From Ottowia sp. SB7-C50 (GTDB lineage Bacteria > Pseudomonadota > Gammaproteobacteria > Burkholderiales > Burkholderiaceae_C): a DNA stretch of 64,000 nt. Position 1 is the first letter of the stretch. The number at the start of each line of letters is the position of its first letter. Position numbers and translations under genes: made by a program. The stretch is from positions 930,001 through 994,000 of the forward strand of contig NZ_CP136995.1 of the NCBI RefSeq assembly GCF_033110285.1, read 5' to 3'. Of the stretch, positions 2,078-62,573 are shown piece by piece. The notes below the pieces were generated by a model. It made no database searches. It had not been told where the DNA came from and saw only the letters and a program-made list of their open reading frames with translations.

Positions 2078-3685
2078 ATGAACTGGAGAGATCGGCCGCG
2101 TTGCGACGAAACGCCCGCGTGGGCGTCGCTGCAGCGCCATTTCGCGCAGCGCTTTGTGGGCGCGGACGCCTTCGACCTGCGCCAGGCCTTCGCTGACGAC
2201 GGCGCGCAGCGTGTCGAGCGCTTCGGCTTCGGCGCAGCGGGCGTGTGGGCCGACCTGTCCAGAAACCTGATCGACGACGACGCGCAGCGGCTGCTGAACC
2301 AACTGGCACAGCAATGCGGCGTAGAGGCGCTGCGCGACGCCATGCTGGCGGGCGAATGCATCAACACCAGCGAGCAGCGGGCGGTGACGCACGTGCACTG
2401 GCGTTCCGGTTCAAATCAGGTGCCAGCGCTGATCCAGAAAGCACCTGAAGCTACAAAAACAATAGCAAACCTGCATCGCCAGATAGCGGTTTCGCGATCC
2501 GAGTTGCTCGATTTTGCCGGAGCGGTGCGTGCCGACGGCGCCATCACCGACGTCGTCAACATCGGCATCGGCGGCTCCGACCTGGGGCCGCGCATGGTGG
2601 TGCAGGCGCTGCGCGCCGGTGGCCACGCCAGCGGCCCGCGCGTGCACTTCGTCGCCAACATGGATGGGCACGAACTGGCTGGCCTGCTGTCGCAATTGCG
2701 GGCCGACCGCACGCTTTTCGTCGTCGCGTCCAAGACCTTCGGCACCGCCGAAACCATGCAGAACGCCGCGTCGGCGCGTGCTTGGTTTGCGGCGCAGGGC
2801 GGCACCGACGTGGCGCGTCATTTCGTTGGTGTCAGCGCCAATGCGGCTGCCGTGGCGGCCTTCGGCGCGGGGCGGTGCTTTGCGTTTGACGAAGGGGTGG
2901 GCGGGCGCTTTTCGCTCTGGTCCAGCATCGGCCTGTCGATGGCCATTGCCATCGGTCGGGCGGGCTTCGAGGCGCTGCTGGCCGGTGCCCGCGCGATGGA
3001 CCAGCACTTCGCCAGCACGCCGATCGAGCGCAACCTGCCCGTGCAACTGGCCCTGCTCGACGTGTGGAACCGCAACTTCCACCGCTTTGCCAGCCGCTGC
3101 GTGGCGCCCTACCACCACGGCCTGCGCCGCCTGCCCGCGTACCTTCAGCAGCTGGAGATGGAAAGCAACGGCAAGCGCGTCGACCTGCGCGGCCGTGCGC
3201 TGCCCTTCGACACCGCGCCCGTCGTCTGGGGCGAGGCGGGCAGCAACGGCCAGCACGCGTTCTTTCAGATGCTGCACCAGGGCACGCAGGTCGTGCCGGT
3301 CGAGTTCGTCGCCGTCCGCGAGCCCGCCCACGCCCTGGCCGGCCATCAACCCAAGCTGCTGGCCAACGCGCTGGCGCAGGCCCGCGCGCTGATGCAGGGC
3401 GACCAAGGCGACGCGCCCGCGCGGCACTTTCCCGGCAACCGCCCATCCACCTTCTTGCTGCTCGACCGGCTGGACCCCGCCGGCCTGGGTGCGCTGCTGG
3501 CCCTGTACGAACACCGCGTATTCGTCGCCGGCGCCATCTGGGGCATCAACAGCTTCGACCAGTGGGGGGTTGAACTGGGCAAGCGGCACGCAGCGCCCAT
3601 TGCGCAGGCGCTGGGGTCGCGCGGTGAACCTGAAGGGGCGACCGGCGACCCGTCCACTGCGGCCTTGATGCGGCGCCTGCGCTAG
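2078..3685 (+). CDS. pgi: Glucose-6-phosphate isomerase
   Basis: Interconverts glucose 6-phosphate and fructose 6-phosphate in the cytosol. The signatures are GIGGSDLGPRM, the SKTFGTAET phosphate-binding segment, LEMESNGK and GEAGSNGQHAFFQ. I start at the ATG at 2078; a TTG lies two codons upstream. About 535 residues is normal for the family. Oddity: bases 2411-2467, around residues 112-130, are A-rich and match the dispersed repeat found elsewhere in the window. They encode a segment including EATKTIA, so the repeat has been accommodated in frame inside a core enzyme, before the first sugar-binding motif. A G6 run near 3563 is in frame here, unlike those in tamA and the Kef genes. Confidence 0.96.
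   Translation: MNWRDRPRCDETPAWASLQRHFAQRFVGADAFDLRQAFADDGAQRVERFGFGAAGVWADLSRNLIDDDAQRLLNQLAQQCGVEALRDAMLAGECINTSEQRAVTHVHWRSGSNQVPALIQKAPEATKTIANLHRQIAVSRSELLDFAGAVRADGAITDVVNIGIGGSDLGPRMVVQALRAGGHASGPRVHFVANMDGHELAGLLSQLRADRTLFVVASKTFGTAETMQNAASARAWFAAQGGTDVARHFVGVSANAAAVAAFGAGRCFAFDEGVGGRFSLWSSIGLSMAIAIGRAGFEALLAGARAMDQHFASTPIERNLPVQLALLDVWNRNFHRFASRCVAPYHHGLRRLPAYLQQLEMESNGKRVDLRGRALPFDTAPVVWGEAGSNGQHAFFQMLHQGTQVVPVEFVAVREPAHALAGHQPKLLANALAQARALMQGDQGDAPARHFPGNRPSTFLLLDRLDPAGLGALLALYEHRVFVAGAIWGINSFDQWGVELGKRHAAPIAQALGSRGEPEGATGDPSTAALMRRLR
2411..2467 (+). repeat. Dispersed two-hairpin repeat, copy inside pgi
   Basis: Forward copy of the family: TCAAAT, CCAGCGCT, an AAGC-type second arm, then AGCTA followed by an A-rich loop and ATAGCA. 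It is translated as part of pgi. Confidence 0.75.
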
Positions 3686-3715
3686 CACGCTGCTGGCGGA
3701 CACCATGTTCAGTCA

Positions 3716-4126
3716 TCAGCCTGGCGTACAGACGGTGTTCAGGCCCACGCCATCGTAGACGTCTTGCCATTGCTGATAGATCGACTGGCTCTTGTCGTCT
3801 TTCTTGTCGAACATGTAGTCGAACAGTTTGCCCCCACCGATGTCGATGTCCGTGGCCGTAAGTGCCATCGCCGCCGCAGCCAGAACTCCGCCGGACTCGA
3901 TCTCGATGGCACCCACGCCGACCGCCACCATCGGGATGACGATCTTTGAAATGGCTTTTTTCCACCACGACTGCTTGGGTGCCGGATTCTGCGGCGGCGC
4001 GGCCGGTTTGACCAACTGCCCATAGCAGCGGGCCGGCCGGCCCCCGCTGATGGTGACCCAGGACTTTCAGTGCTTGCAGGAGATTTTTTTCGGGGTCGCG
4101 CCGTTGATGCAGGGGTCGCGGACACA
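3716..4126 (-). pseudogene. Decayed fragment of unknown gene with in-frame stop
   Basis: Reading leftward from the groEL terminator, one frame gives RDPCINGATPKK, then a TGA at 4067-4069, then KSWVTISGGRPARCYG, a proline-rich stretch and a C-terminal part of about 99 residues with an Ile/Val/Ala-rich hydrophobic segment and a charged end. No start codon with a ribosome site is visible, and the 5' end runs into the terminator hairpin. This looks like the 3' end of a larger gene truncated by rearrangement. The GGRPAR segment faintly recalls PAAR-like or secreted-effector tails, but I do not recognise the family. The 99-codon part from a TTG at 4015 could still be read as a small protein. Confidence 0.4.
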
Positions 4127-4158
4127 AAAAAAGAGCCGCTGTCTCCAGCGGCTCTTTC
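4126..4158 (-). terminator. Rho-independent terminator of groESL
   Basis: On the minus strand an AAAGAGCCGCT / AGCGGCTCTTT stem with a short loop is followed by a T run. It lies about 40 bases after the groEL stop codon. Confidence 0.85.
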
Positions 4159-4198
4159 GCTTGGCGGCGGTCGAAAGACTCGACCGCGCGGCGTGGAC

Positions 4199-5926
<1,728 letters not shown>

Positions 5927-5947
5927 ATCCCGAAGGTTGGCGAGAAC

Positions 5948-6238: not shown

Positions 6239-6336
6239 GGGTTCTCCTAAGTTCAACAGGTGTAAGGATTTTTGGGTCGAAACGCCCACCGCAAGGGACA
6301 GCGCACGACCGGAATGCGATGGAGCATCGCGCGTTG

Positions 6337-9700: not shown

Positions 9701-10883
9701 GGTCGACCGGCAACTGGCGCTGATCCCAGGGGCCGGCGGCGCGGTTGGCCAGGTCGGCATCGACCGCCCAGCCGGCCGTGCCGGTGCCGGGCAGCGGTGT
9801 GATGTCGAGCCGGCCGCTGAGGTGGGTGCGCGGTGCCTCGGCCCAGATGGCGCCCACATCGACCGCGCGCAGGCGGGCGTGCGCCTCGGGCAGCGGCTGC
9901 GCGGCCCAGGGCGTGATGCGGGCGGTGGCGTGGGCTTCGGGCGTGTCGGCGGTGGCCGGCGCGCTGGCGGCGGCCACTGGGGAAGCAGCGGGCGGCGCGG
10001 ATGCCGCCGTGGCGGGTGCCGCTGCAAAACCGGCCAACGGCGGCAGCGCCGGGATGGCAGGCGCCGATGCGCCCGGCGCGGCGGCCGCCGCCTGCAGGTC
10101 GGCCTGCGCGGCCATGTCGGTCAGCGGGCCGCGCAGCGTGGCTTGCAGCGTCAGCGGCACGGGCGCTGCGGCGCCGGGCACCGGGGCCGTCAGCGCGCCG
10201 GCCAGCGCCACGTCGACGCGGATCGGCGCGTGCGCGGTGGCGGCGGCCCGCAGGCGGTAGCTGCCGCCTTCAATGCGGGCGCTGTCCAGTTCCAGCAGGT
10301 GGCGCACGCCGTCGTAGTCGAAGTGGCCCGCCACGTCGCTCAGCGTGTAGGGCGGCGGGCCGGCCCAGCGCAGCTCGCCCGCGCGCAGCGCCTTGACGCG
10401 GATGTTGAGCGGCAGCGCGAACGATTCGGGCGGCCCGGCCGACGGCTCGCCCGGCGCGCGCTGGTCGTCGATGACGATGCGGCTGGCCGCCAGCTGGTCG
10501 ATCTGCAGCGTGCGGGCCAGCAGGGCGGCGGGCGTCCACAGCAGCTCGGCGTCGTGCACTTCCACGCTCAGGCCTTCTTTTTCCCACACCAGGCGGCGCA
10601 CCTTGCCGCCGCCGCGCACGGTGCCGGTGACTTCGTCGGTCACCAGCGGCTGCTGCGCGCCGGCCCAGCGCAGCGCGGTGGCCAGCGAGCCGTCGGTGCC
10701 TGTCCACACCCACAGGCCGCCCAGCGCCAGCAGCAGCACGGCCAGCAGAAATGCCAGCGACCACAGCGGCACGCGCCACCAGCGGCCACGGCGGCGCGGC
10801 GCTGGCGTGGATTCGGATTCAAAACCGGTCCCAGCGCTTGCGGGATCAGCGCGACCAGCTATGGATTCAGGAGTATCCACCAT
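6750..10883 (-). CDS. tamB: Translocation and assembly module protein TamB
   Basis: Very large (about 1377 residues) inner-membrane-anchored protein that spans the periplasm and, with TamA, helps insert outer-membrane proteins or move phospholipids. One N-terminal membrane helix follows an Arg-rich stretch (WSLAFLLAVLLLALGG); the rest is low-complexity beta-rich repeats, and the C-terminus is the conserved DUF490 domain ending RLSFD. I choose the ATG at 10883 (MVDTPES); an in-frame extension to 10958 runs into a non-coding repeat. Oddity: bases 10819-10874, in the cytoplasmic N-terminus, are a copy of the dispersed repeat read as IAGRADPASAG. It lies directly after tamA on the same strand, the usual tamA-tamB order. 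Confidence 0.92.
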   Translation of the reverse strand: MVDTPESIAGRADPASAGTGFESESTPAPRRRGRWWRVPLWSLAFLLAVLLLALGGLWVWTGTDGSLATALRWAGAQQPLVTDEVTGTVRGGGKVRRLVWEKEGLSVEVHDAELLWTPAALLARTLQIDQLAASRIVIDDQRAPGEPSAGPPESFALPLNIRVKALRAGELRWAGPPPYTLSDVAGHFDYDGVRHLLELDSARIEGGSYRLRAAATAHAPIRVDVALAGALTAPVPGAAAPVPLTLQATLRGPLTDMAAQADLQAAAAAPGASAPAIPALPPLAGFAAAPATAASAPPAASPVAAASAPATADTPEAHATARITPWAAQPLPEAHARLRAVDVGAIWAEAPRTHLSGRLDITPLPGTGTAGWAVDADLANRAAGPWDQRQLPVDQLRADVTWQDNVATVRALKAQVGGGTVESTGRWANAPAAQTGSGTWQIDTRITGVNPARLHTQMAAFPLDGTATVSGEGAAIDFDVALQGREQRAAAPARRGESAAEALARDLRALRLRDAAATGRWLDGLLTLNTLRVRTDDAQLAGNARLRPAADALGGSADLTLTAPGASASVKGELQPTTGAGTLRAHIADAARALAWAQKLPGADALASARARGSATLDGSWRGGWRDPTIQARLAAPSLDWLAPGSAAGTPPVQLRGFEATANGRLAQAQLAASGRVTQGERQLDLRLAANGGRTTPNAPLAASAWKFNLGQLQAGVRDPALGAGTWQLASRGSVPLQWSPAQGGQFEAGAGELTITSPAPTSQALVAWGPVRWRGGELTTTGRLTGLPLQWVERVAGSQMQDAGLTGNIVFNGDWDATLGQQLRVSANLVRASGDVTVLTTDAETGVQSRVAAGLRDARLTLRSEGNALNLKLVWDSERAGNIDGQLRTELAATRDAGGSTRWSWPEAAPLQGQVQARLPQISAWSVLAPPGWRLRGALAADARIAGTRATPLVNGTVAADDVALRSVVDGIEFADGRLRGRLDGTRLLIDEFVLRGAGEQGAGGLLRATGEAGLVDGRPQARLAATLDKLRASVRDDRQVTVSGNVQAALDGRAISANGRLRVDRALIVLPDENRPTLGDDVIVRGPDGKVMYGKEGPGAVARPTSAAGQQAAQQQARTDAARARTEASVKSGDTEPLTAKVDVQVDLGDNFRVTGMGIDTRLAGVLTLAGNGPLTTPPSLRGRVQTVGGTFRAYGQQLIIQRGTITFGGEIGNPTLDIIALRPNYTSDQRAGVQVMGTALLPRVRLYSEPALPDNQTLAWLLLGRPAPDTGSEAAMLQTAALALLGGREGRGLASRFGLDELSFTGGAGAGGVADASVTLGKRLSDRLYAAYEHSLAGTGGTLMIFYELSRRWTLRGQAGANQAIDLIYRLSFD
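10819..10874 (+). repeat. Dispersed two-hairpin repeat, copy in tamB N-terminus
   Basis: Contains CCAGCGCTTG, a CAGCGC arm and CCAGCTATGG. It is translated on the opposite strand as the start of TamB. The derived peptide resembles those in CtaA and SCO1. Confidence 0.7.
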
Positions 10884-10910: not shown

Positions 10911-11062
10911 TGGCCCCCACCCCAACCCTCCCCCAGCGGGGGAGGGCGACGAAATCAAAAGGCCGCGGAGCAGGCCATGCCGGAACGCCGTGGCGCGGGC
11001 TTGGCCCGGCCACTGGCGTTGTCCCCCTGGGGGGGAAGGCGCCGCAGGCGACTCAGGGGGAG
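10911..11062 (-). repeat. Second repeat family (R2), copy 1
   Basis: Intergenic tamA-tamB sequence of about 150 bases. On the minus strand it reads CTGAGTCGCCTGCGGCGCC, a C run, a G run, GACAACGCCAGTGGCC, GGGCCAAGCCCG and GGCCTGCTCCGCGGCC, closing with a CCTCCCCC/GGGGGAGG hairpin. The same order of blocks recurs near 50.6 kb and, more diverged, at 33.1 kb. No coding function is evident. Confidence 0.75.
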
Positions 11063-13680: not shown

Positions 13681-15147
13681 ATGCCGTGCCATGCCCACCC
13701 CGAAAGCGTGCAAATTCGCGCCGCAGGCGGCTGGCCGACCTGGCTGCAGGGCATCGCCTGCCTGGTGTGCGTGGCGCTGCTCAGCGCCTGCTCGTCCGTC
13801 CGGCCCTGGCTCAACAGCGCCATGCGGGTGGACCAGGCGCACGCCATGCACGTCAACGAGACGCGCGACCCCAGCCTGGTCATGGCCGTCACCATCTCCG
13901 GCGGCGGCGCGCGGGCGGCCGCGTTCGGCTACGGCGTGCTGCGCGAGCTGGAAGACCACGAATTCGACTGGCGCGGCAAGCGCCTGACGCTTCTGGAGGC
14001 CACCGACCTGATCAGCGCGGTGTCGGGCGGCTCCATCGTCGCCGGCTACTACGCCGCCTTCGGCCGCACGGGCCTGCCGAACTTCGAGCGCGAGTTCCTG
14101 CGGCAGGACTTCCAGCAAAGCCTGCTGGGCCAAATGGCCCGGCCCAGCAACCTGCGCGACCTCAGTTCGCCATGGTTCGGCCGCGCGCACCTGCTGGCGC
14201 GGCGGCTGGACGCGCTGTACCAGGGCAAGACCTTCGCCGATCTGGAGCGCAATCCGCGCCACCCGCAGCTCATCATCACCGCCACCGACCTGGCGCGCGG
14301 CACCGGATTCGAATTCACCTGGGACCAGTTCACGCTGATCTGTTCCGACTTGGGCAACGTGCCGCTGTCGTTTGCCGTGGCGGCGTCGTCGGCGGTGCCG
14401 ATCCTGCTCAGCCCCGTGACGCTGCGCAACTACGCCGACCGCTGCCCGCCCGAAGTCACCGCCCGCATCCTGGGCGGCAGCGAACCGGGGCGCGCGGGGC
14501 CGGCCGACTTTCGGCGGCGGCTGTACCGCGCCCAGGCCGACGCTTACCTGAACGCTATCCAGCGGCCCTATGTGCACCTGGTCGACGGCGGCCTGTCGGA
14601 CAACCTGGGCGTGCAGCGCCTGCTTGACCGCGCACTGATGGACGACGGCCTGCGCCAGACCTTCCGCGAAGTGGTGATCGCACCCGGCAGCGTGCAGAAG
14701 GTGGTGCTGGTGGTGGTCAACGCCGAACGCGAGCCCGAGCGCGACATCGACAGCAGCGACACCGTGCCCGGCATGTTCGACGTGGCCGATGCCTTGCTGT
14801 TTGGCGCCGGCGCGCGCTCGACCCGCGAGACGCAGGAATACCTGCAAGACGTGATCCGCGAGTGGCGGCGCGAGCTGGGCGCCGCCGCGGCCAGCGGCAG
14901 CAACGTGTTCGCGGCCGACGCCGACATCCATGTGATCATGGTGAATCTGCGCGACGCGCCCGAATCCATGAACCGCCAACAGCTGCTGCGCGTGCCGACC
15001 GCCTTCACCGTGTCGGACGCCGAGGTCACCGACCTGATCGCCGCCGGCCGCGGCGTGCTGCGCCAGTCGCCCGAATTTCAGGCGCTGGTGCGCGCCCTGG
15101 GCGCGCGCGTGGTGCCGTCCGGCCTGCCCGCCGAGGTCAAGCCTTGA
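13681..15147 (+). CDS. Patatin-like phospholipase, predicted lipoprotein
   Basis: 488 residues. A hydrophobic N-terminal segment with lipobox LLSAC predicts lipidation. The patatin catalytic features are the oxyanion loop SGGGARA, the nucleophile elbow AVSGGS (first glycine replaced by alanine) and the DGGLSDNLG aspartate motif. The family hydrolyses acyl esters of phospholipids or other lipids. A membrane-anchored periplasmic or outer-membrane location would fit envelope lipid turnover, but the substrate is unknown. The stop codon overlaps the left edge of a dispersed repeat lying between this gene and the convergent VWA gene. Confidence 0.85.
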   Translation: MPCHAHPESVQIRAAGGWPTWLQGIACLVCVALLSACSSVRPWLNSAMRVDQAHAMHVNETRDPSLVMAVTISGGGARAAAFGYGVLRELEDHEFDWRGKRLTLLEATDLISAVSGGSIVAGYYAAFGRTGLPNFEREFLRQDFQQSLLGQMARPSNLRDLSSPWFGRAHLLARRLDALYQGKTFADLERNPRHPQLIITATDLARGTGFEFTWDQFTLICSDLGNVPLSFAVAASSAVPILLSPVTLRNYADRCPPEVTARILGGSEPGRAGPADFRRRLYRAQADAYLNAIQRPYVHLVDGGLSDNLGVQRLLDRALMDDGLRQTFREVVIAPGSVQKVVLVVVNAEREPERDIDSSDTVPGMFDVADALLFGAGARSTRETQEYLQDVIREWRRELGAAAASGSNVFAADADIHVIMVNLRDAPESMNRQQLLRVPTAFTVSDAEVTDLIAAGRGVLRQSPEFQALVRALGARVVPSGLPAEVKP

Positions 15148-15186
15148 AAGTGCCTGTAGCGCTTTCGTATCAAGCGCCTTTAGCTA

Positions 15187-15200
<14 letters not shown>
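15144..15200 (+). repeat. Dispersed two-hairpin repeat, near-complete intergenic copy
   Basis: Clean copy between convergent genes: TAGCGCTTT and AAGCGCC arms, then TAGCTATTATTTAGATAGCA. It contains the stop codons of both flanking genes or touches them, so it may serve as a terminator for both. Confidence 0.85.
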
Positions 15201-16374
<1,174 letters not shown>

Positions 16375-16395
16375 GAAATTCCGCTCCAGCCCGCA

Positions 16396-17007
16396 TCAGG
16401 CGGGTGCATGTCGCTTCAATAAATAGAGCAACTGGGCCTTGGCCTCGGGCCATTCACCGGCCAGCATCGAATACATCACGGTGTCGCGCACCGTGCCGTC
16501 GCGGCGCACGGCGTGGTGGCGGATCACGCCGTCCTTGCGCGCGCCCAGGCGTTCGATGGCCTTCTGCGAGGCAAAGTTGAAGTTGTCGGTGCGCCAGCCG
16601 ACCACCGCGCAGTGCAGCGTGTCGAAGGCGTGGCCCATCATCAGCAGCTTGCAGGTGGTGTTGACGTGCGAGCGCTGCACGCTGCGGCGGTACCAGGTCC
16701 AGCCGATCTCCACGCGCCGGATGGCCGGCACGATATCGTGGTAGCTGGTGCTGCCCAGCACGGCATCGGTGGCGTCGTCCACCACGACAAAGGCCAGGCG
16801 GTTGCCGTCCGCCCGCATCTGCAGCGCCGCGTCGATGTAGGCGCGTGTCTGCTCGGGTTCGGGCACGCTGGTGATGCGCAGCTTCCATAACTCGCCATCG
16901 GCGGCGGCGGCGCGCAGCCCGGCTTCGTGCGACAGCGCCATGGGCTCGATGCGCACGCCACGGTCGCGCATGACCACGGGGCGGATGAAGTCGTCGGCAA
17001 CCGGCAT
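16396..17007 (-). CDS. GNAT-family N-acetyltransferase
   Basis: 203 residues resembling RimJ/RimL-type acetyltransferases: a substrate loop near the N-terminus, the beta-strand core (FVVVDDATDAVLGSTSYHDI), and an acetyl-CoA-binding region ahead of LLMGHAFDTL and the NFASQKAIERLGARKDGV motif. It probably acetylates a protein N-terminus or a small molecule. It sits between moxR and the VWA gene on the same strand, 21 bases before the latter, so the three are likely cotranscribed although a functional link is not obvious. Confidence 0.85.
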   Translation of the reverse strand: MPVADDFIRPVVMRDRGVRIEPMALSHEAGLRAAAADGELWKLRITSVPEPEQTRAYIDAALQMRADGNRLAFVVVDDATDAVLGSTSYHDIVPAIRRVEIGWTWYRRSVQRSHVNTTCKLLMMGHAFDTLHCAVVGWRTDNFNFASQKAIERLGARKDGVIRHHAVRRDGTVRDTVMYSMLAGEWPEAKAQLLYLLKRHAPA

Positions 17008-17009
17008 TT

Positions 17010-17067
17010 TGCTATCGTTTCACTAGCTACTTGCGCTGAATGGACAAGGGCAAAGGGTCAATTGGAC
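17010..17067 (-). repeat. Dispersed two-hairpin repeat, moxR-GNAT spacer copy
   Basis: Diverged copy, forward on the minus strand: CAATTGACC left edge, CAGCGCAAG, TAGCTAGTGAAACGATAGCA. The rest of the 130-base spacer (to 17137) is C-rich and holds no gene. Confidence 0.6.
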
Positions 17068-18830: not shown

Positions 18831-18887
18831 CCAAAAAGGCTGCCAGCGCTGGCCAGATCAGCGTATGCAGCTATTAAAATCGCAGCA
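18831..18887 (+). repeat. Dispersed two-hairpin repeat, intergenic copy
   Basis: CCAGCGCTGG, ATCAGCG arm, GCAGCTATTAAAATCGCAGCA. It lies after the cytochrome gene and next to the stop of the convergent DUF1841 gene. Confidence 0.75.
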
Positions 18888-18889
18888 AA

Positions 18890-28827: not shown

Positions 28828-29544
28828 ATGATCGACAAGATCGCCGCCTCCGTGGCCGAGGCGCTGGCCGATGTGCAGGACGGCGCCACGGTGCTGATCG
28901 GCGGCTTTGGCACGGCCGGCACGCCGGGCGAGCTGATCGAGGGGCTGATCGCGCAGGGCGCGCGCGACCTGACCCTGGTGTGCAACAACGCCGGCAATGG
29001 CGAACACGGCATCGCCGCACTGATCAAGGCCGGGCGCGTGCGCAAGATCATCTGCAGCTTTCCGCGCCAGGCCGACAGCCACGTGTTCGACGCCGCCTAC
29101 CGCAGCGGCAAGATCGAACTGGAACTGGTGCCGCAAGGCAACCTGGCCGAACGCATGCGCGCGGCGGGTGCGGGCATCGGCGCCTTCTTCACGCCCACCG
29201 GCTTCGGCACCGAACTGGCGCTGAACCCCGACGGCAGCGCCAAGGAAACGCGCCGCATCGATGGCCGCGACTACGTGCTCGAACACCCCATCCACGGCGA
29301 CGTGGCGCTGGTGAAGGCCGAGCGCGGCGACCGCTGGGGCAACCTGACCTACCGCATGGCGGCACGCAACTTCGGGCCCGTGGTGGCCATGGCGGCGCGC
29401 TTCACGGTGGCCAGCGTGCATGAGGTGGTCGAACTCGGGCAGCTGGACCCCGAGGCCGTCGTCACGCCTGGCATCTTTGTCAGCCGCGTGGTGCGGGTGC
29501 CGCGCACCGCCACCGCCGCGGGCGGCTTCAAGAACCCGGCCTGA
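28828..29544 (+). CDS. pcaI: 3-oxoadipate CoA-transferase subunit A
   Basis: 238 residues of the alpha subunit of a family I CoA-transferase, with the oxyanion/CoA motif IGGFGTAGTPGEL and CNNAGNGEHG. With PcaJ it moves CoA from succinyl-CoA to 3-oxoadipate. The order alpha, beta, then a 3-oxoadipyl-CoA thiolase is diagnostic for pcaIJF rather than an acetoacetate transferase. A GGAG-like site precedes the ATG. The 182-base upstream gap (divergent from the PHA-system gene) includes a G7 run at 28776-28782 and should hold the promoter. Confidence 0.9.
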   Translation: MIDKIAASVAEALADVQDGATVLIGGFGTAGTPGELIEGLIAQGARDLTLVCNNAGNGEHGIAALIKAGRVRKIICSFPRQADSHVFDAAYRSGKIELELVPQGNLAERMRAAGAGIGAFFTPTGFGTELALNPDGSAKETRRIDGRDYVLEHPIHGDVALVKAERGDRWGNLTYRMAARNFGPVVAMAARFTVASVHEVVELGQLDPEAVVTPGIFVSRVVRVPRTATAAGGFKNPA

Positions 29545-29546
29545 CC

Positions 29547-29596
29547 GGCCGCCAGCGCAAGGAGCAGCAGCGTGAGCAGCTATCAAAGACGAAGCA
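29547..29596 (+). repeat. Possible degenerate dispersed repeat at pcaJ start
   Basis: GCCAGCGC near the pcaI end and GCAGCTATCAAAGACGAAGCA across the pcaJ start resemble the repeat, but the middle is poor. If real, the pcaJ start codon lies inside it. Confidence 0.35.
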
Positions 29597-30222
29597 AGGA
29601 CGACCTCGCCCGGCGCGTGGCGCAGGACATTCCCGATGGCTCGTACGTCAACCTCGGCATCGGGCAACCCACACTGGTCGCCAACCACATTCCCGCCGGG
29701 CGCGAGGTCATCCTGCACAGCGAGAACGGCATCCTGGGCATGGGCCCGGCGCCGGCGCCGGGGCTTGAGGACTACGACCTCATCAACGCCGGCAAGCAGC
29801 CCGTCACGCTGCTGCCGGGCGGCGCGTTCTTTCACCACGCCGACAGCTTCGGCATGATGCGCGGCGGGCATCTGGACGTGTGCGTGCTGGGGGCCTTCCA
29901 GGTCTCGGCCCAGGGCGACCTGGCCAACTGGAGCACCGGCGAGCCCGGCGCCATTCCCGCCGTGGGCGGCGCCATGGACCTGGCCGTGGGTGCGCGGCAA
30001 ACCTGGGTGATGATGGATCTGCTGACCCGCGACGGCCAGTCGAAGCTGGTGGCGCGCTGCAGCTACCCGCTCACCGGGCTGGCGTGCGTCAAGCGCGTGT
30101 ACACCGACCTGGCCACCTTCGAATGCACGGCCGACGGGCTGGTGCTGGTGGATGCGGTCGATGGGCTGTCGCACGCCGAACTGGAGCGTCTGACTGGCCT
30201 CCCGATCGCGCAGAAGCCATAG
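29572..30222 (+). CDS. pcaJ: 3-oxoadipate CoA-transferase subunit B
   Basis: 216-residue beta subunit with the catalytic glutamate motif SENGILGMGP and the GGAFFHHADSF segment. It starts at a GTG (29572) preceded by AAGGAG, 27 bases after pcaI. The first residues (SSYQRRSKDDL) may be partly derived from the dispersed repeat. Completes the heteromeric transferase of the beta-ketoadipate pathway. Confidence 0.9.
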   Translation: MSSYQRRSKDDLARRVAQDIPDGSYVNLGIGQPTLVANHIPAGREVILHSENGILGMGPAPAPGLEDYDLINAGKQPVTLLPGGAFFHHADSFGMMRGGHLDVCVLGAFQVSAQGDLANWSTGEPGAIPAVGGAMDLAVGARQTWVMMDLLTRDGQSKLVARCSYPLTGLACVKRVYTDLATFECTADGLVLVDAVDGLSHAELERLTGLPIAQKP

Positions 30223-33879: not shown

Positions 33880-34053
33880 GGGCGTCGATTGTGCCGCTAC
33901 AGTGGGCCTGTTCGGCGATGGCGAAGTGGCGCGGCGGTGAAGGTGGACTCTGCGCCATCTGTCACCCACGTCGCGCGCGGACGGTCAGCCCGAACGCTAT
34001 GATTTGTGAAGCGATAGACGCTGATTGAGCCAGCGCTGAGCACCATTTCACCC

Positions 34054-34803: not shown

Positions 34804-34809
34804 CCAGAA

Positions 34810-34861
34810 CGCTACAAAAAATAGAGCTGCACACGCTGGCGGGTAAAGCGCCAGCCATCAA
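34810..34861 (-). repeat. Dispersed two-hairpin repeat, tauE-kef copy
   Basis: Forward on the minus strand: TTGATGGCTGGCGCTTTAC, GCCAGCGTG, CAGCTCTATTTTTTGTAGCG. It fills the gap between the convergent TauE and Kef genes and overlaps the Kef stop codon. Confidence 0.7.
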
Positions 34862-36745
34862 TGAGGTGCGGATCTCGGCGTTGCGGGCTCGAGCGCATCG
34901 GCCTGCCGGCTCCAGCTGGCCAGCGTGCCGGTCTCGGCCGCCTGGCGCAGCGACGCGCGGTCGGCGCGCTCCTGCGCCATCTGCTCTTCGAACTGCGCGC
35001 GGCCGGCCTGGATGGTGGCGACCAGCTTGGCGCGGTCTTTCTGCAGCGGGCGCAGGCGCTCGGCCAGCGACAGGTTGTGGCGCCTGAAGCCCATGGCGGC
35101 GCGGCGCGCCTCGGCGGCGGGGTAGCCCAGCGCCTCCAGCACGCTGCGCGCGCTCATCAGGCTGGATTCGAACAGCTCGCGCTGCACGCGCAGCACGCCG
35201 CGTTCGCGCAGCTGGTACCAGTGGATCATGTCGCGCGCCCGCGCCACCACTTCCAGCTGCGGAAAATGCTCGCGCGCCAGGTCGACCAGCGCCAGCGATT
35301 GTTCGACGTCGTCGATGGCCACCACCAGCAGGCGCGCGCTGTCGGCGCCGGCGATGCGCAGCAGGTCGAGCCGCGTGGCGTCGCCATAGAACACCTGGCT
35401 GCCCAGGGTGCGCGCGGCTTCCAGGATGTCGACGTCGTGGTCGAGGATGGTGGTGCGCACGCCCTGCGCGGCCAGCACGCGCGCCACGATCTGCCCGTAG
35501 CGCCCGAAGCCGGCGATGATGACCGGCGCGTCCTGCGGCTCGGAGATTTCCTCGGCCGTCTTCACGCCCAGCCGGGCGTAGCGCGGCAGCACCAGCCGGT
35601 CGATGGCGATCAGCACCAGCGGCGACAGCAGCATCGACAGCGCCACCGCACCGATCAGCAGCGACGCCGTGTCGGCACTGAACACGCGCGCGCCGGTGGC
35701 GGCCTGGAAGACGACGAAGGCGAATTCACCCCCCCTGCGCCAGCAGCAGCGTGAACACCGGGCGTTCGGCCGGCGGCAGGCCCATCCATCGCGCGACGAG
35801 CCAGATCGCCACCGCCTTCAGCGCCATGAAGGCGACCACGACCAGCGCGATCAAGCCGGGGTTTTTCAGCAGTACGCCAAAGTCGATGCTCATGCCGACG
35901 GCGATGAAGAACAGGCCCAGCAGCAGACCCTTGAAAGGTTCGATGTCGGTTTCCAGCTCGCGCCGGTACTCGCTTTCTGATAGCAGCACACCGGCCAGGA
36001 AAGCGCCCAGCGCCATCGAAAGCCCCACCACCTGCATCAGCGCCGCGATGGCCACCACCAGCAGCAGCGCGGCGGCGGTGAAGATCTCCGGCGTGTCGCT
36101 GCGGGCGATCCAGCGCAGGGCGGGGCGCAGCAGCAAGCGGCCGCCCAGCACGATGGCGGCGATGACGCCGACGATCTTCAGCGCCTCCAGCCACACCGGC
36201 AGGCCGCTGTGCGCGGCGGCGTCGGGCACGCCCAGCAGCGGCACCAGCGCCAGGATGGGGATGGCCGCCACGTCCTGAAACAGCAGGATGGCAAAACCCG
36301 CCTCGCCGCTGGGCGTGCGCAGCAGGTTGCGCTCGCCCATCACCTGCATCGCGATGGCCGTGGACGACAGCGCCAGCCCCAGCGCCGCCACCACGGCCAC
36401 GCGCCACGGCACGCCGGCCAGCAGGGCGGCGCCGGCCAGCAAGGCGGCGCAGCCCAGCACCTGCGCACTGCCCCAGCCGAAGATGGGGCCGCGCAGCTTC
36501 CAGAGGCGGCTGGGTTCCAGCTCCAGCCCGACCAGGAACAGCATCAGCACCACGCCGAATTCGGCAAAGTGCAGGATGGTCTGCACGTCGCTGACGAGGC
36601 CCACGCCCCACGGCCCGATGACGATGCCGGCCGCCAGGTAGCCAATGATGGCGCCCAGCCCGAGTGCCTTGGACAGCGGCACGGCGGCCACGGCAGCGGC
36701 CAGGAAGATCAGGCTCGCGCTCAGCCAGCCGGGGAGGTGTTCCAT
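34858..36745 (-). CDS. Kef-type K+/H+ antiporter (CPA2), frameshifted
   Basis: CPA2 monovalent cation:proton antiporter with about 12 membrane helices followed by a TrkA-N nucleotide-binding domain (VIIAGFGRYGQIVARVL). The first frame (36745 to 35726, 339 residues) ends abruptly at LLLAQGG; the second frame resumes with the last helices and the NAD-binding domain down to 34858. The expected AQGGEFAFV junction is restored if one base is removed from the seven-C run at 35729-35735. As written the antiporter would lack its regulatory domain. A KefF-like flavoprotein gene lies just upstream on the same strand, supporting glutathione-gated KefB/KefC-type function. Confidence 0.88.
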
Positions 36746-36752
36746 GATGAAA

Positions 36753-36799
36753 TGCTATTGTTGTTGTAGCTTATTGCGCAGTCTGGGCTTGCGCTGCCG
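36753..36799 (-). repeat. Dispersed two-hairpin repeat at kefF 3' end
   Basis: Forward on the minus strand: GGCAGCGC, CTGCGCAAT, AAGCTACAACAACAATAGCA. It encodes the last residues of the KefF-like protein and extends to within 8 bases of the Kef start codon. Confidence 0.7.
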
Positions 36800-37416
36800 G
36801 CCTGTCGGACGCAGGAATCTCGGCGCGGTCGACGGCCGCTGCCATGGCCCACGACGGCCAGGTGCGCAGGTGTTCAGCCACTTGCGTGGCGTGCTGGGCA
36901 ATGCGGTCCTGCGTGACGCCGTTGGCGCCGTGCAGCACCAGCGGCGGCAGCCAGCGCATGCCGCACAGGCGCGCCACCTGGTGCAGCGGCAGCAGGTAGT
37001 CGTCGATGGGGTGGCGGTTGTAGCCGCCCGGCGCATACGCCTCCTGCGGGCCGCCGGTGCTGGCCACCACCCACAGGTCCTTGCCCCGCAGCGCCACGCC
37101 TGCGCGGCCGTAGGCCCAGCCCAGCGTCAGCACGTCGTCCAGCCACAGCTTGAGCAGCGGTGGCACCGCATACCAGTGCACCGGAAACTGCAGCACCACC
37201 AGCCGCGCGGCGGCCAGCCGGGCCTGTTCGCGCTCGACGTCGATGTCGTAGTCAGGGTAGCTGGCGTACAGGTCGTTGACGAGCACGCCCGGTTGGCCGC
37301 GCACCGCGTCCAGCACGGTGCCGTTGACGCGCGATGTGCTCCAGTGGGGGGTGCGCCGCGACGACGTAGATGGCGGCGCCGGGCGCGGGCGGCGGCGTGC
37401 TGGGCAGATCGGGCAT
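36771..37416 (-). CDS. KefF-like NAD(P)H-quinone oxidoreductase, frameshifted
   Basis: Flavodoxin-fold protein of about 215 residues that would activate the downstream Kef antiporter. The body shows VNDLYASYPDYDIDVEREQ, LQFPVHWYAVPPLLKLWLD and the GGPQEAYAPGGYNRHPID flavin/ancillary segments of the family. The N-terminus (ATG at 37416, MPDLPSTPP...IYVVAAHP) is in another frame; dropping one base of the six-G run at 37346-37351 joins it to HWSTSRVNGTVLDAV. Third gene in this window broken at a G/C homopolymer. Its C-terminus is encoded by a dispersed repeat copy. Confidence 0.85.
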
Positions 37417-39882: not shown

Positions 39883-40806
39883 ATGTCCGCGCCTGCCACC
39901 GACCGACCGCCCACCATCGACCCGGTGGCGGCGCAACGCTGGGCCACGCGGACGCGTACGGCATCGCCCTGGCTGCACGAGGAAGTGGCGCGGCGCATGG
40001 CCGAGCGGCTGGCGGTGATTCGCGTGCCGGTGCAGCGCTGGGCCGACTGGGAGCCGGTGCGTGGCGGCCTGCAAGGCCACGATCAGGTGGCGGCGCATTA
40101 CCCGGATGCCGAATGCTTTCGTGTGCTACCGCATACTGGTATTGGGCATGAAGCTATAAAAAAAGAAGCAAAAGGCTGGTGGCAGCGCCTGCGGCGCACG
40201 CCCGCCCGCGTGACCGACGTGGCGCAGCCGCCGCCCGCGTCGGTGCAGATGGTGTGGGCCAACATGCTGATTCACCAGCACGCCGACCCGACAGCGCTGA
40301 TGGCCGACTGGCACCGCGCGCTGGCGGTGGATGGCTTCGTGATGTTTTCGGCGCTGGGGCCGGACACGCTGAAGGAACTGCGCCCGCTGTACGCCCAACA
40401 CGGCTGGCCGCCGCCCGCACAGGACTTCACCGACCTGCACGACTGGGGCGACCAGCTGGTCGCGGCCGGCTTTTCGGAGCCGGTGATAGACATGGAACAC
40501 ATTACGCTGACCTTTGCGTCGCCTGCGCGACTGCTGCAGGAACTGCGCGAACTGGGCCGCAACCTGCACCCCGGGCGCTTCGCGGGGCTGCGCACGCCGG
40601 CCTGGCGCGAGCGCCTGGACGCCGCGCTGGACGCACAGTTGCGCACCGGCGGGGCAGACGCCCCCTTGGCGCTGACCTTTGAGGTCATCTATGGGCACGC
40701 CATGAAGGCACCGCCACGCCATGCCGTCAAGGGCGAAACGGCGATCGCGCTGGACGACCTGAAAGCGTCGTTGCGACAGCGCAATAAGAACTTGCCCTCT
40801 GTTTGA
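39883..40806 (+). CDS. BioC-like SAM-dependent methyltransferase
   Basis: 307 residues resembling malonyl-ACP O-methyltransferase (BioC) in its second half: WANMLIHQHADPTALMADWHRAL, GFVMFSALGPDTLKELR, and DMEHITLTFASPARLLQELR. The usual SAM motif I (GxGxG) is absent; the region reads RWADWEPVRGG, as I recall for a Burkholderiales subgroup of this family. Bases 40121-40170 are a dispersed repeat copy encoding HEAIKKEAKGWW in the middle of the Rossmann domain. Enzymatic activity is therefore uncertain. Divergent from comF. Confidence 0.8.
   Translation: MSAPATDRPPTIDPVAAQRWATRTRTASPWLHEEVARRMAERLAVIRVPVQRWADWEPVRGGLQGHDQVAAHYPDAECFRVLPHTGIGHEAIKKEAKGWWQRLRRTPARVTDVAQPPPASVQMVWANMLIHQHADPTALMADWHRALAVDGFVMFSALGPDTLKELRPLYAQHGWPPPAQDFTDLHDWGDQLVAAGFSEPVIDMEHITLTFASPARLLQELRELGRNLHPGRFAGLRTPAWRERLDAALDAQLRTGGADAPLALTFEVIYGHAMKAPPRHAVKGETAIALDDLKASLRQRNKNLPSV
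40121..40170 (+). repeat. Dispersed two-hairpin repeat inside BioC-like gene
   Basis: GAAGCTATAAAAAAAGAAGCA with a more diverged 5' half (GTGCTACC...GGTATTGGGCAT). Read in the same frame as the pgi and ligAB copies. Confidence 0.65.
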
Positions 40807-45718: not shown

Positions 45719-45780
45719 TTAGAAATATAGGGCAAGCGCCCTTGTGATACAAGCGTTGAGAGCTACGAATTCAAGAGCAT
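45719..45780 (+). repeat. Dispersed two-hairpin repeat in oxidase operon
   Basis: AAATATAGGGCAAGCGCCC, ACAAGCGTTG and AGAGCTACGAATTCAAGAGCA. Fills the spacer before ctaE and ends at its ribosome-binding site. Confidence 0.65.
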
Positions 45781-48523: not shown

Positions 48524-49717
48524 ATGGACGCGACCTCGCTGTACGACCTGAGCCCCGCGCTGCGCCTGATGGGCATGGGCCTGGTGGTGGCCGCCGGCCC
48601 GCTGGCCTGGCTGTGGCTGCGCCACCCTGGCGCCGGCCCCGCGCGCCGCCTGCAGGCGCTGACGCTGCTCACGCTGTTTCTCACCTTCGACCTGGTTCTG
48701 TTCGGCGCCTTCACGCGGCTCACCGATTCCGGCCTGGGCTGCCCCGACTGGCCGGGTTGCTACGGCAAGGCCAGCCCGGTCGGCGCGCGCGACCACATCG
48801 CCGCCGCGCAGGCCGCCATGCCGACCGGCCCGGTGACGCACGGCAAGGCCTGGGTCGAGATGATTCACCGCTACCTGGCCACTGGCGTCGGCGTGCTGAT
48901 CGTCGTGCTGGCCGTGGCCACGTGGGTGCTGTGGCGGCGCCAGCGCGCCGGCAGCGGCCCGCGCGGCTTCATCGTGCACCCGGCGTGGCCCAGCGTCACG
49001 CTGCTGTGGGTGTGTGCCCAGGGCGCGTTTGGCGCGCTGACGGTGACCATGAAACTGTTTCCCGCCATCGTCACGCTGCACCTGCTGGGCGGCGTGGGGC
49101 TGCTGGTGCTGCTGGCGGTGCAGGCCGAAAGCTACCGCCAATCGGCCGGCGCAGCGCAGGAGTCGCTGGGCGCCGGCCTGCGCGGGCTGCTGTGGGTGAC
49201 CACGGCGATGGTCGCCATGCAGATCGCGCTGGGCGGCTGGGTCAGCACCAACTACGCCGTGCTGGTGTGCAACACCTTCCCCACGTGCCAGGGCAGCTGG
49301 TGGCCCGAGATGGATTTTGCGCAGGGCTTCGAGCTGTGGCGCCCGCTGGGCCGGTCGGCCGACGGCTCGCAGCTGGAATTTCATGCGCTCACCGCCATTC
49401 ACTACACGCACCGCCTGGCCGCGTACGCCGTGTTCGTGGCGCTGGGCGTGCTGGCGTGGCAGTTGCAGCGGGCCGACCGGCTGGCGCCGCAGCGGCGCTG
49501 GTTGGTCGCACTGGCAGCGCTGCAACTCGTCACCGGCCTGTCCAACGTGGTGCTCGACTGGCCGCTGCTGGCCGCCGTGCTGCACACCGGCGGCGCGGCC
49601 GCCCTGATGACCGTGCTGTCCTGGGCGCTGTGCGCCAGTCGGGCGGCGGCCGAGGAAAACGCAAAAACCATAGCTGCCAACGCACTACCGGCAAGCGCTG
49701 GGGGTCTGAAAGCATGA
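48524..49717 (+). CDS. ctaA: Heme A synthase (COX15/CtaA)
   Basis: 397 residues, eight helices; oxidises heme O to heme A at the membrane. Motifs: [22 protein letters not shown] with the redox-active cysteine pair, [12 protein letters not shown], and [11 protein letters not shown] heme-ligating histidines. The last ~16 residues ([14 protein letters not shown]) are encoded by a dispersed repeat copy, which seems to have replaced or extended the natural C-terminus. Stop overlaps the ctaB start. Confidence 0.95.
49662..49710 (-). repeat. Dispersed two-hairpin repeat at ctaA 3' end
   Basis: Forward on the minus strand: GACCCCCAGCGCTTGCC, GTGCGTTGG, CAGCTATGGTTTTTGC. It encodes the CtaA C-terminus and carries the ribosome-site region of ctaB. 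Confidence 0.75.
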
Positions 49718-50733: not shown

Positions 50734-51348
50734 AACCCAGATCGCCGAAATACTCTTAAAACCATAGCTGCCGCCGCTGGTCTGGCAAGCGCTGGAGCCC
50801 TTTTAAGTGCATGCCAGCCCGACAAGCCGCAGTTTCGTGGCATCGACATCACCGGCGCCGACTACGCGCAGGGCTTTCAGCTGACCGACTTCGATGGCCG
50901 GCCGCGCAGCCTGGCCGACTTCAAGGGCAAGGTGGTGGTGGTCTTCTTCGGCTACACGCAATGCCCCGACGTCTGCCCCACCACCATGAGCGAGATGGTG
51001 CAGGTCAAGCAACTGCTGGGCGCCGACGGCGACAAGTTGCAGGTGCTGTTCGTCAGCGTCGACCCCGAGCGCGACACGCCCGAGGTGCTGAAGGCCTACA
51101 TGGCCAGCTTCGACCCCGGCTTTCTGGGCCTGTACGCCGCCTCGCCCGACGCGCTGGCGCAGCTGGCCAAGGACTTCAAGGTGTACTACAAAAAGGTCGA
51201 CGGCAAGACCCCCACCAGCTACACCATGGACCACACCGCCGCCAGCTTTGTCTACGACCCGCAGGGCCGCCTGCGCCTGTACAGTCGCTACGGCAGCGGG
51301 GCCGAGGCGATGGCGGACGACGTCAGGTTGCTGCTCAAGGGCGTTTGA
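50731..51348 (+). CDS. SCO1/SenC copper chaperone lipoprotein
   Basis: 205 residues. Thioredoxin-fold copper chaperone delivering copper to CuA of subunit II. Copper ligands CPDVCP near residue 78 and the histidine in YTMDHTAASF. Lipobox LLSAC gives a membrane anchor. The signal-peptide h-region (KTIAAAAGLASAGALL) is encoded by a dispersed repeat copy, so the repeat has been recruited as a secretion signal. The RBS-to-start region lies in the R2 repeat. Confidence 0.94.
   Translation: MNPDRRNTLKTIAAAAGLASAGALLSACQPDKPQFRGIDITGADYAQGFQLTDFDGRPRSLADFKGKVVVVFFGYTQCPDVCPTTMSEMVQVKQLLGADGDKLQVLFVSVDPERDTPEVLKAYMASFDPGFLGLYAASPDALAQLAKDFKVYYKKVDGKTPTSYTMDHTAASFVYDPQGRLRLYSRYGSGAEAMADDVRLLLKGV
50751..50806 (-). 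repeat. Dispersed two-hairpin repeat forming SCO1 signal peptide
   Basis: Forward on the minus strand: AAAAGGGCTCCAGCGCTTGC, ACCAGCGGCGG, CAGCTATGGTTTTAAGAGTA. Encodes much of the signal peptide. Confidence 0.8.
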
Positions 51349-51380: not shown

Positions 51381-51438
51381 TTCAAATGGGCCTCCAGCGC
51401 TTGCCAGACAAGCGCAGATAGCTTCTAAATAGATAGCA
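51381..51438 (+). repeat. Dispersed two-hairpin repeat, best-conserved copy
   Basis: Near-consensus: TTCAAATGGGCCTCCAGCGC, TTGCCAGACAAGCGC (first hairpin), AGATAGCTTCTAAATAGATAGCA (second hairpin, in pieces). Between the convergent SCO1 and Bug genes; possibly a bidirectional terminator. Confidence 0.85.
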
Positions 51439-51449
51439 AGCGACGGCGC

Positions 51450-52442: not shown

Positions 52443-52482
52443 GGCGGACAGCTTGAAAGAAGAATGACGTTGCATTATCGAA

Positions 52483-52539
52483 TACTATTAAAAAAATAGC
52501 TGCATGCGCTTGATGGGCAAGCGCAGGCGACCGATTTGA
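52483..52539 (-). repeat. Dispersed two-hairpin repeat, Bug-rpoH spacer copy
   Basis: Forward on the minus strand: TCAAATCGGTCGCCTGCGC, TTGCCCATCAAGCGC, ATGCAGCTATTTTTTTAATAGTA (in pieces). Complete and well conserved, directly upstream of the Bug gene and next to the rpoH terminator. Confidence 0.85.
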
Positions 52540-57301: not shown

Positions 57302-57304
57302 GCC

Positions 57305-58990: not shown

Positions 58991-59004
58991 GAAAAGGCGC
59001 TGCC

Positions 59005-59946: not shown

Positions 59947-61401
<1,455 letters not shown>

Positions 61402-61409
61402 GAGAAATG

Positions 61410-61516
61410 CCGGACGCGAAGGACGCCAAGGATTCGCGAAGGACGCAAAAGGGGCAGCCAAGAATTTCTGGTTTTCTTTCGCGTCCTTCGCGTCACTTTT
61501 GCGTCCTTTGCGTCCG
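61410..61516. repeat. Inverted GGACGC-rich repeat between ligAB and ligC
   Basis: Left arm CCGGACGCGAAGGACGCCAA and on to GGACGCAAAAGG; right arm, read in reverse complement, CCGGACGCAAAGGACGCAAA and on. Arms of ~40 bases with a few mismatches and ~26 bases of loop, built from GGACGCnAA units. Fills the 154-base gap; in mRNA it would form a stable hairpin that may cause partial termination or protect the upstream message. Confidence 0.8.
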
Positions 61517-61555
61517 GCTGTTGATTGCAGCCTTTCCATCTCGACAAGGAACACC

Positions 61556-62527
61556 ATGACCCAACCCATCAACGTCGCGCTGGCCGGTGCCGGCGCCTTC
61601 GGCATCAAGCACCTGGACGGCATCAAGAACATCGACGGCGTCAAAGTTGTGTCGCTGATCAGCCGCGACCTGGAAAAGACCCAGGAGGTGGCCGACCAGT
61701 ACGGCATCGGTCACGTCACCACCGACCTGGCCGACAGCCTGAAGCTGCCGGGCCTGGACGCCGTCATCCTGTGCACGCCCACGCAGATGCACGCCGAGCA
61801 GACGATGCAATGCCTGCAGGCCGGCAAGCACGTGCAGGTCGAGATTCCGCTGGCCGATTCGCTGGCCGGCGCGCAGGCGGTCGTCGACCTGCAGAAGAAG
61901 ACCGGCCTGGTCGCCATGTGCGGCCACACCCGCCGCTTCAACCCCAGCCACCAGTACGTGCACAACCGCATCCTGCGGGGCGAGTTCAACATCCAGCAGA
62001 TGGATGTGCAGACCTACTTCTTCCGCCGCACCAACATGAACGCGCTGGGCCAGCCGCGCTCGTGGACCGACCACCTGCTGTGGCACCACGCCGCGCACAC
62101 GGTGGACCTGTTCGCCTACCAGTGCGGCTCGCCCATCGTCAAGGCCAACGCCGTGCAGGGGCCGATCCACAAGGACCTGGGCATCGCCATGGACATGAGC
62201 ATCCAGCTGCAGGCCGCCAACGGCGCCATCTGCACGCTGTCCCTCAGCTTCAACAACGACGGCCCGCTGGGCACCTTCTTTCGCTACATCGGCGACACGG
62301 CGACCTACATCGCCCGCTACGACGACCTGGTGCAGACGCACGCCAAGGGTCCGGAGACGGTGGTCGATGTGAGCAAGGTCGATGTGTCGATGAACGGCAT
62401 CGAGCTGCAGGACCGCGAGTTCTTTGCCGCCATCCGCGAAGGCCGCGAACCCAACAGCAGCGTGGCGCAGGTGCTGGCCTGCTACCAGGTGCTGCACGAC
62501 CTGGAGCAGCAGCTGAATGCTGCATAA
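61556..62527 (+). CDS. ligC: 4-carboxy-2-hydroxymuconate-6-semialdehyde dehydrogenase
   Basis: 323-residue Gfo/Idh/MocA-type oxidoreductase with Rossmann motif LAGAGAFGIKHLDGI and the EIPLADSLAGAQ catalytic segment; FNPSHQYVHNRI and SWTDHLLWHHAAHTVDLF follow. Converts the ring-cleavage product hemiacetal to PDC with NAD(P)+. ATG at 61556 preceded by ACAAGGA. The 4-oxalomesaconate tautomerase gene is not seen in the cluster. Confidence 0.93.
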   Translation: MTQPINVALAGAGAFGIKHLDGIKNIDGVKVVSLISRDLEKTQEVADQYGIGHVTTDLADSLKLPGLDAVILCTPTQMHAEQTMQCLQAGKHVQVEIPLADSLAGAQAVVDLQKKTGLVAMCGHTRRFNPSHQYVHNRILRGEFNIQQMDVQTYFFRRTNMNALGQPRSWTDHLLWHHAAHTVDLFAYQCGSPIVKANAVQGPIHKDLGIAMDMSIQLQAANGAICTLSLSFNNDGPLGTFFRYIGDTATYIARYDDLVQTHAKGPETVVDVSKVDVSMNGIELQDREFFAAIREGREPNSSVAQVLACYQVLHDLEQQLNAA

Positions 62528-62573
62528 ATGATAGCTGAATGCGCTTGTCCTGCAAGCGCCAGCGGCCAATTTA
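62519..62573 (-). repeat. Dispersed two-hairpin repeat after ligC
   Basis: Forward on the minus strand: TGGTAAATTGGCCGCTGGCG, CTTGCAGGACAAGCGCATTC, AGCTATCATTTATGCAGC. Overlaps the ligC stop codon and ends just before the next gene. Confidence 0.85.

Follow-up and report, generated by a model that had tools for sequence, protein, structure and literature searches.

How do short repeats of the repetitive extragenic palindromic (REP) type spread, and why do genomes retain hundreds of them? This question is raised by a stretch of 64,000 nucleotides from Ottowia sp. SB7-C50 (contig NZ_CP136995.1, positions 930,001 to 994,000; hereafter "the window", in whose coordinates features are given). Here a short REP-like element, made of a core of about 22 nt between two arms that are found family-wide, recurs between and within genes. 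A REP family with a partner transposase is a known kind of system. What is unexpected is that the cores are species-specific and differ even at sites that genomes share.

To score copies we used a 58-column matrix built from 96 copies found in other parts of the same genome (20 stretches, each of 20 kb). No window copy is in the matrix, although window copies were among the seeds of the search that yielded its 96 copies. In the window it detected 19 copies of at least 28 bits and a marginal one at 13 bits. Shuffling the window twenty times (order 1) produced a single match above 8 bits in total, and 464 kb of reversed sequence gave none above 16 bits and one above 10 bits. The dispersed repeat proposed in an earlier sequence-only reading is therefore real, and the 16 positions given there as strong all score 32 to 67 bits, each no more than 7 bases from the start reported. 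We counted 115 copies across 464 kb of the Ottowia sp. SB7-C50 genome, or 0.25 per kb, a density that extrapolates to about 900 per genome. A strict pattern matched 410 times in the whole 3.61-Mb genome as compared to one control match, which indicates more than 100 copies per genome; a covariance-model search, in which the best 150 candidates were scored, is not usable as a copy count. Identity with a known RNA family was rejected, as the window gave only a tRNA at gathering thresholds. No earlier description of the family was recognised in the literature search, in which sources were judged mostly from titles and passages, and a term search of PMC6006769 did not find the genus names sought.

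Copies of the element measure about 66 bp and have sharp edges: information begins about 8 bases before the matrix and stops at the matrix 3′ end, and there is an additional A/T-rich stretch at the 5′ end. Its GC content is 52%, compared to 68% for the window. The consensus in Ottowia sp. SB7-C50 is TCAAATCGGCC for the left arm, AGCGCTTGCCGGACAAGCGC for the core and GCAGCTATCAAATTAGTAGCAA for the right arm. Matrix columns are linked to their neighbors and hardly at all over distance. The two maintained hairpins of the sequence-only reading were not supported, since pairing in the paired columns of both stems was no better than in shuffles and three genome-specific cores (G480, G020 and G529) contain no evident palindrome. 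The lack of covariation beyond shuffles also led us to reject a folded RNA or single-stranded DNA hairpin as the conserved feature. The left-arm A/T triplet in matrix columns 2 to 4 is bimodal (AAA in 52 of 115 copies, TTT in 16), and its two bases are strongly linked.

To follow arms and cores separately, we searched 13 genomes with the arms only, masking the core against detection bias. The reversed control gave no match in eight genomes, one in four and five in G525. The outcome was a core consensus specific to each genome between arms common to the family, a feature absent from the sequence-only reading. The consensus is CAGCGCTTGCCGGACAAGCGCAG in Ottowia sp. SB7-C50, with cores of the same kind in G010, G014 and G525; it is CAGCGCCCGTCAGGCAGGCGCAA in G003, TAGCGCAGGCTGCACCAGCGCTG in G011, CAGCCCTACACCGATCTGCGCAG in G020 and CAGGCCAATAGAATATCGCGGGA in G480. 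The 25 positions of the G480 core, with up to 3 mismatches allowed, matched 583 times in G480 and not once in 149 other genomes of the family, while the identity of the G480 arms (0.41 left, 0.64 right) lay within the range of other genomes. In G525, three near-identical copies (0.98 to 1.00; stretches L230 to L239) end in GATGTGT like the transposase-linked form described below, possibly a recently amplified variant.

A further comparison is between genomes that carry a copy at the same position. For sites shared among Ottowia species, each copy was scored with a model that excluded it, and in 59 of 68 site-pairs the two cores taken together fitted best with their own genomes; the pairs reuse genomes and are not independent. 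Between G014 and G020, core identity was no higher at shared than at unrelated sites (0.45 and 0.46), whereas the arms retained a memory of the site (0.65 at shared versus 0.52 at unrelated sites). Positions in the ctaB regions of nine further genomes were matched by gene neighbors, with three extra G525 stretches left out. In the BioC-like gene of the window, a copy lies at the identical distance (-146) in six genomes, five Ottowia and G480; the G480 site bears the G480 core with few differences, and the other genomes bear other cores. Of 25 SCO1 loci, taken from the window and 24 genomes, 19 have a copy in the signal-peptide codons. In G480 this site carries the G480 core, which is read through as a plausible predicted lipoprotein signal. 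Because cores of the own genome's type stand at shared positions, the sequence comparison suggests that cores are replaced in place at old repeat sites.

One alternative is an old, inactive family resembling miniature inverted-repeat transposable elements (MITEs) that now only decays. The Ottowia sp. SB7-C50 copies have features expected of such a family, and they give no support to recent mobilization: among the 115 copies none are near-identical, the best pairwise identity is 0.78, and there is no master sequence. Also, in 33 overlapping absent-site comparisons over six genomes we found no clean 66-bp empty site, the copy-bearing side being at most 39 nt longer. The sites themselves are old. 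Relative to G010, which is 91.5% identical over aligned parts, 15 of 16 anchored window copies had a partner at the same place (3 were not anchorable), and in reverse all 14 anchored G010 copies had a partner in Ottowia sp. SB7-C50 (6 not anchorable). More distant Ottowia have many sites in common and lack others. Decay alone, however, would not make cores alike within genomes and different between them, which already contradicts it, and changes toward the consensus are comparable in number to those away from it (56 against 44, and 89 against 107 between Ottowia sp. SB7-C50 and G003). We regard this explanation as very improbable.

Lengths of copy-bearing genes gave a mixed picture of intragenic copies. 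In the BioC-like linker, comparison with copy-less homologues gave a net difference of only -5 to +3 residues (184 comparisons that involve the copy-bearing genes of six genomes, apparently at one site, and are part of 226 flank-anchored comparisons among 347). Compared by eye, the signal peptide of SCO1 was of similar length in most loci whether or not it held a copy, that of G480 being about 6 residues longer; automated length comparison gave no anchored match for ctaA or SCO1. Copy-bearing PGI proteins have about 535 to 538 residues versus 524 in O. thiooxydans, and LigAB mostly about 454 to 455 versus 451 in Comamonas, neither of which is clear as a length test. The nearest thing to an empty site was the 3′ spacer of the transposase gene discussed next, about 48 nt longer with a copy than in four copy-less loci. 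The idea that intragenic copies are simple insertions is not supported by the near-equal BioC-like linker, yet copy-bearing PGI and the transposase spacer are longer.

What could overwrite cores? Pfam identified one Y1_Tnp gene in Ottowia sp. SB7-C50, encoding a REP-associated tyrosine transposase (RAYT) of 230 amino acids upstream of gltB. Since 146 of the 150 family genomes have a RAYT homologue (35 of 35 repeat-rich genomes, defined by at least 10 pattern matches, and 111 of 115 others), presence alone is uninformative. This census used a protein query; PF01797 had missed the homologue in three repeat-rich genomes that the query found, and was replaced. We therefore compared RAYT loci, 20 fetched from repeat-rich genomes plus the Ottowia sp. 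SB7-C50 locus, and 20 fetched from repeat-poor genomes, of which four with another RAYT type were left out. A same-strand copy above 10 bits starting at the RAYT stop codon was present in 14 of 21 rich loci (three scoring only 12 to 13 bits) versus 1 of 16 poor loci, whose genome has 7 pattern matches. Where listed, the copies start at -15 to +3 of the stop codon. The spacer from RAYT to a conserved TGTCCC box measured 40 to 66 nt in all rich loci but one (20 of 21). Among the 16 poor loci, 7 had a spacer of 37 to 58 nt and 4 had one of 2 to 3 nt, while in 5 it was not found. Directly 3′ of RAYT, a gltB-like motif was seen in 11 of the 21 rich loci and in 9 of the 20 poor ones. Family copies did not flank RAYT on both sides in most loci: they lay on the 3′ side only, with one close upstream copy in L191. 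These data support a REP-like family with a RAYT partner, and with it this part of the earlier REP/MITE-like reading; recent mobilization, maintained hairpins and simple intragenic insertion are not supported.

Three further observations concern these loci. Boxes of the AATTGGGGTCAGA type, a motif distinct from the repeat family, lie on both sides of RAYT in many loci and are probably the RAYT's own ends. The distance from the TGTCCC box to the AATTGGGGTCAGA-type box that follows it downstream hardly varies, at 46 nt (L009 1430-2260, loci L180-L219). The G014 genome has 20 Y1_Tnp matches, several of them IS200-like and near-identical, besides the gltB-linked RAYT.

RAYTs act on REP DNA, and this, together with the linked copy, makes the RAYT, a domesticated transposase, the candidate agent. 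With confidence only slightly above even, we favor the explanation that this is a high-copy REP-like family of a vertically inherited Comamonadaceae RAYT, a Y1 transposase, whose core is overwritten by way of RAYT-processed single-stranded DNA. In a templated process, the core now current in a genome would replace the cores of copies already in place, and the most likely agent would be single-stranded REP DNA that the RAYT has processed and that pairs with other copies by way of its arms. The core would then be a recognition module that tracks the changing specificity of the RAYT, and selection would retain copies that lie at the ends of genes or in reading frames that tolerate them. Judged from sequence, copying of cores into existing copies is the simplest reading of a private sequence that recurs at hundreds of positions, some of which are shared. 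More tentatively, and with somewhat less than even confidence, we propose that a dedicated process rewrites the cores of hundreds of dispersed sites genome-wide in place, coding sites included and arms untouched: a concerted evolution probably driven by RAYT-processed single-stranded DNA. As species share positions, some of them even across genera, and the core differs as a unit, the gain of a new core becomes separable from the gain of a new site, so that REP dynamics and RAYT specificity become testable. Such a process may also be a natural means of changing numerous chromosomal sites in concert, codons of functional genes among them.

Several observations weigh against this explanation. Core models existed for 11 genomes, and at the SCO1 site the own core ranked first in just 6 of these (second in G010 and G014, fourth in G434, ninth in G498 and G487); some of these models contain the site itself, while those of G480 and G526 exclude it. 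Although the RAYT-linked copy of G020 bears the G020 core, the own genome's core ranked first at only 3 of 10 RAYT-linked 3′ ends, and that of G480 lacks the G480 core. The linked copy may go back to one ancient event and have been passed on together with the RAYT gene, and RAYT homologues are near-universal in the family, at one locus. No overwriting event between close strains was caught. Pairs with near-identical cores had somewhat more similar left arms in both genomes compared (left/right identity 0.49/0.68 versus 0.34/0.57 for different-core pairs in G480, and 0.54/0.59 versus 0.41/0.57 in G020), which fits copying of whole elements. The SCO1 ranks and this arm similarity slightly lowered our confidence. 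Finally, the dinucleotide preferences of the half-sites mirror each other, as a dimeric protein would cause.

The last point bears on another possibility, that the copies are sites of a host DNA-binding protein: selection would keep each site, the core would track the specificity of the protein by point mutation, and copying would be confined to the first spread. The half-sites match in preference without covariation, local columns are linked, and copies show no strand preference toward neighboring genes, all as this possibility predicts. Shared copies of Ottowia sp. SB7-C50 and G003 (11 sites) also fit it: they are 61% identical, compared to 51% for unrelated copies within the Ottowia sp. SB7-C50 genome, and their consensus columns are kept while the others drift (74% and 38% identity), figures that are biased toward conservation as only sites detected in both genomes enter. 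The 89 changes toward and 107 away from the consensus are likewise about equally frequent. On the other hand, the G480 core is private and non-palindromic, and to place it at 583 copies by point mutation would need many parallel substitutions per site, in coding sequence as well. We therefore consider a host binding site unlikely, while taking it seriously.

It could also be speculated that a new variant moves as a complete element into sites not occupied before while old copies are lost, the arms diverging faster than the cores. This would resemble the orthoswitch of Pseudomonas: Nunvar and colleagues reported orthologous RAYTs with different REP classes, proposed that the original REPs remain and decay after the switch, and suggested that novel variants might partially replace them (passages of PMC3686654). 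The patchy abundance across genomes, the sites that are not shared and the slightly more similar left arms that accompany near-identical cores would all follow. Spread to new sites does not, however, account for own-type cores at shared sites whose arms keep a memory of the site, and we think it improbable. A new core at a shared position points to replacement rather than decay, as expected if cores are overwritten in place.

The position of copies relative to genes was assessed with a home-made gene finder (83% coding) that trims some gene starts, including those of tamB and SCO1. Of the 115 copies, 35 lie within genes, 15 of them in sense and 20 in antisense orientation, and the other 80 at gene edges or in intergenic sequence; the intragenic share of about 30% is a lower estimate, because copies in the trimmed starts counted as edge copies. 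All 15 sense copies use one phase, which is free of stops in 64% of copies, compared to 51% and 24% for the other two. Genes around 75 intergenic copies were oriented left+/right+ in 28 cases, left+/right- in 19, left-/right- in 20 and left-/right+ in 8. Compared to background gene pairs (164 same direction, 45 convergent, 56 divergent), copies are fewer between divergent and more frequent between convergent genes. As flanking genes occur in every orientation, a promoter or one-way terminator was rejected. A replichore-polarized motif was also rejected, the best 150 scored matches having no polarity (p 0.46).

The repeat is confined to the Comamonadaceae. An order-wide pattern scan of 399 genomes gave at most one match in each of 387 genomes of other families, and matches in 9 of 12 of the own family. 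Among 150 family genomes, 55 had at least one match and 35 at least ten, with a maximum of 644; the matrix was trained on one Ottowia, and divergent family members could escape detection. Among named relatives, Ottowia are the nearest. Of 80 loci fetched for the ctaB region, 54 were scored; copies occurred in Ottowia, Acidovorax and Extensimonas loci, and few or none in Variovorax and Limnohabitans.

The closest known systems are REPs and their doublets (REPINs) with RAYT, also called TnpA_REP, in enterobacteria, Pseudomonas and Stenotrophomonas. These likewise comprise hundreds of short dispersed repeats, which lie mostly between genes as those of Ottowia probably do, and a RAYT that is single-copy, inherited vertically and accompanied by a linked repeat; repeat classes differ between orthologous RAYTs (as described in parts of PMC3686654 and PMC8049555). 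The Ottowia family differs in its length of about 66 bp, in its intragenic share and in the position of the RAYT copy, 3′ only in most loci. Its copies in SB7-C50 have no master sequence, no tetranucleotide tag of the GTAG/GGAG type at the 5′ end (ATAG occurs near the 3′ end in 39 of 115 and GTAG in 23 of 115) and no close inverted doublets, only 1 of 97 neighbor pairs being less than 250 bp apart. Above all, its cores are exchanged at shared sites while the arms stay. Rickettsia palindromic elements are short palindromic repeats in frame inside genes, where they are insertions that lengthen proteins. They resemble the Ottowia family as short in-frame repeats, whereas the BioC-like coding site is nearly length-neutral and PGI is not. 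Unlike a MITE, the family showed no clean empty site that lacked the element length (33 comparisons, at most 39 nt longer). BRE, the beta-proteobacterial repeat element of Hot et al., has about 90 bp and 69% GC and is often in tandem; it is reported from Bordetella and from some members of the Comamonadaceae, and at times it falls inside coding sequence (passages of PMC3110155). It is alike in being a short dispersed repeat, and by that description the Ottowia family would be set apart by its 52% GC, its single close pair among 97 neighbors and its one match at most per genome in other families.

Within the window, Pfam bore out the proposed host genes PGI, TamB, CtaA, SCO1 and LigA-LigB; the BioC-like open reading frame (ORF) matched no Pfam family at E ≤ 0.001. 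Six copies are in frame within coding sequence: in pgi (2411..2468, +, 54.6 bits; PF00342), antisense in the 5′ part of the tamB ORF (10819..10876, +, 53.5 bits; PF04357), in the BioC-like gene at the site common to G010, G014, G011, G020 and G480 (40114..40171, +, 38.5 bits), antisense across the 3′ end of ctaA (49656..49713, -, 32.1 bits; PF02628), antisense in the SCO1 signal-peptide codons at a site common to many genera (50750..50807, -, 58.1 bits; PF02630), and in the linker between the LigA and LigB domains (60478..60535, +, 59.3 bits; PF07746, PF02900). Between convergent genes are copies at 15144..15201 (+, 56.4 bits), which overlaps both gene ends, 34809..34866 (-, 37.4 bits) and 51382..51439 (+, 67.1 bits). 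Four lie upstream of genes: 17009..17066 (-, 48.0 bits), immediately upstream of a GNAT acetyltransferase gene (16396-17007; PF13302), 36752..36809 (-, 38.3 bits), immediately upstream of the minus-strand gene 35726-36745, 45723..45780 (+, 39.9 bits), upstream of the gene at 45796, and the intergenic 52482..52539 (-, 66.7 bits), upstream of a minus-strand gene. Other intergenic copies are at 5871..5928 (+, 57.8 bits), 18831..18888 (+, 61.4 bits) and 33994..34051 (-, 31.7 bits). Gene junctions hold the copies at 16374..16431 (+, 28.8 bits; two minus-strand genes), 62517..62574 (-, 59.9 bits; two plus-strand genes) and 29540..29597 (+, 32.5 bits), which spans the stop of one plus-strand gene and the start region of the next. 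The marginal copy, at 30573..30630 (+, 13.3 bits), is within a gene. Two of these, at 16374 and 33994, had escaped the sequence-only reading, and of its three weaker positions 29547 was recovered at 29540, 30596 corresponds to the marginal copy, and 54688 had no match above 8 bits.

Two other repeats were noticed in the window. A GC-rich stretch of about 115 bp between ctaB and SCO1 (approximately 50625-50740) is absent from G010 and matches 10984-11033 in inverted orientation (50 nt, 90%); it looks like a second dispersed repeat, with an apparent empty site in G010. At 61409-61518 there is a 43-nt inverted repeat, 84% complementary, with a 24-nt loop and rich in AAGGACGC motifs.

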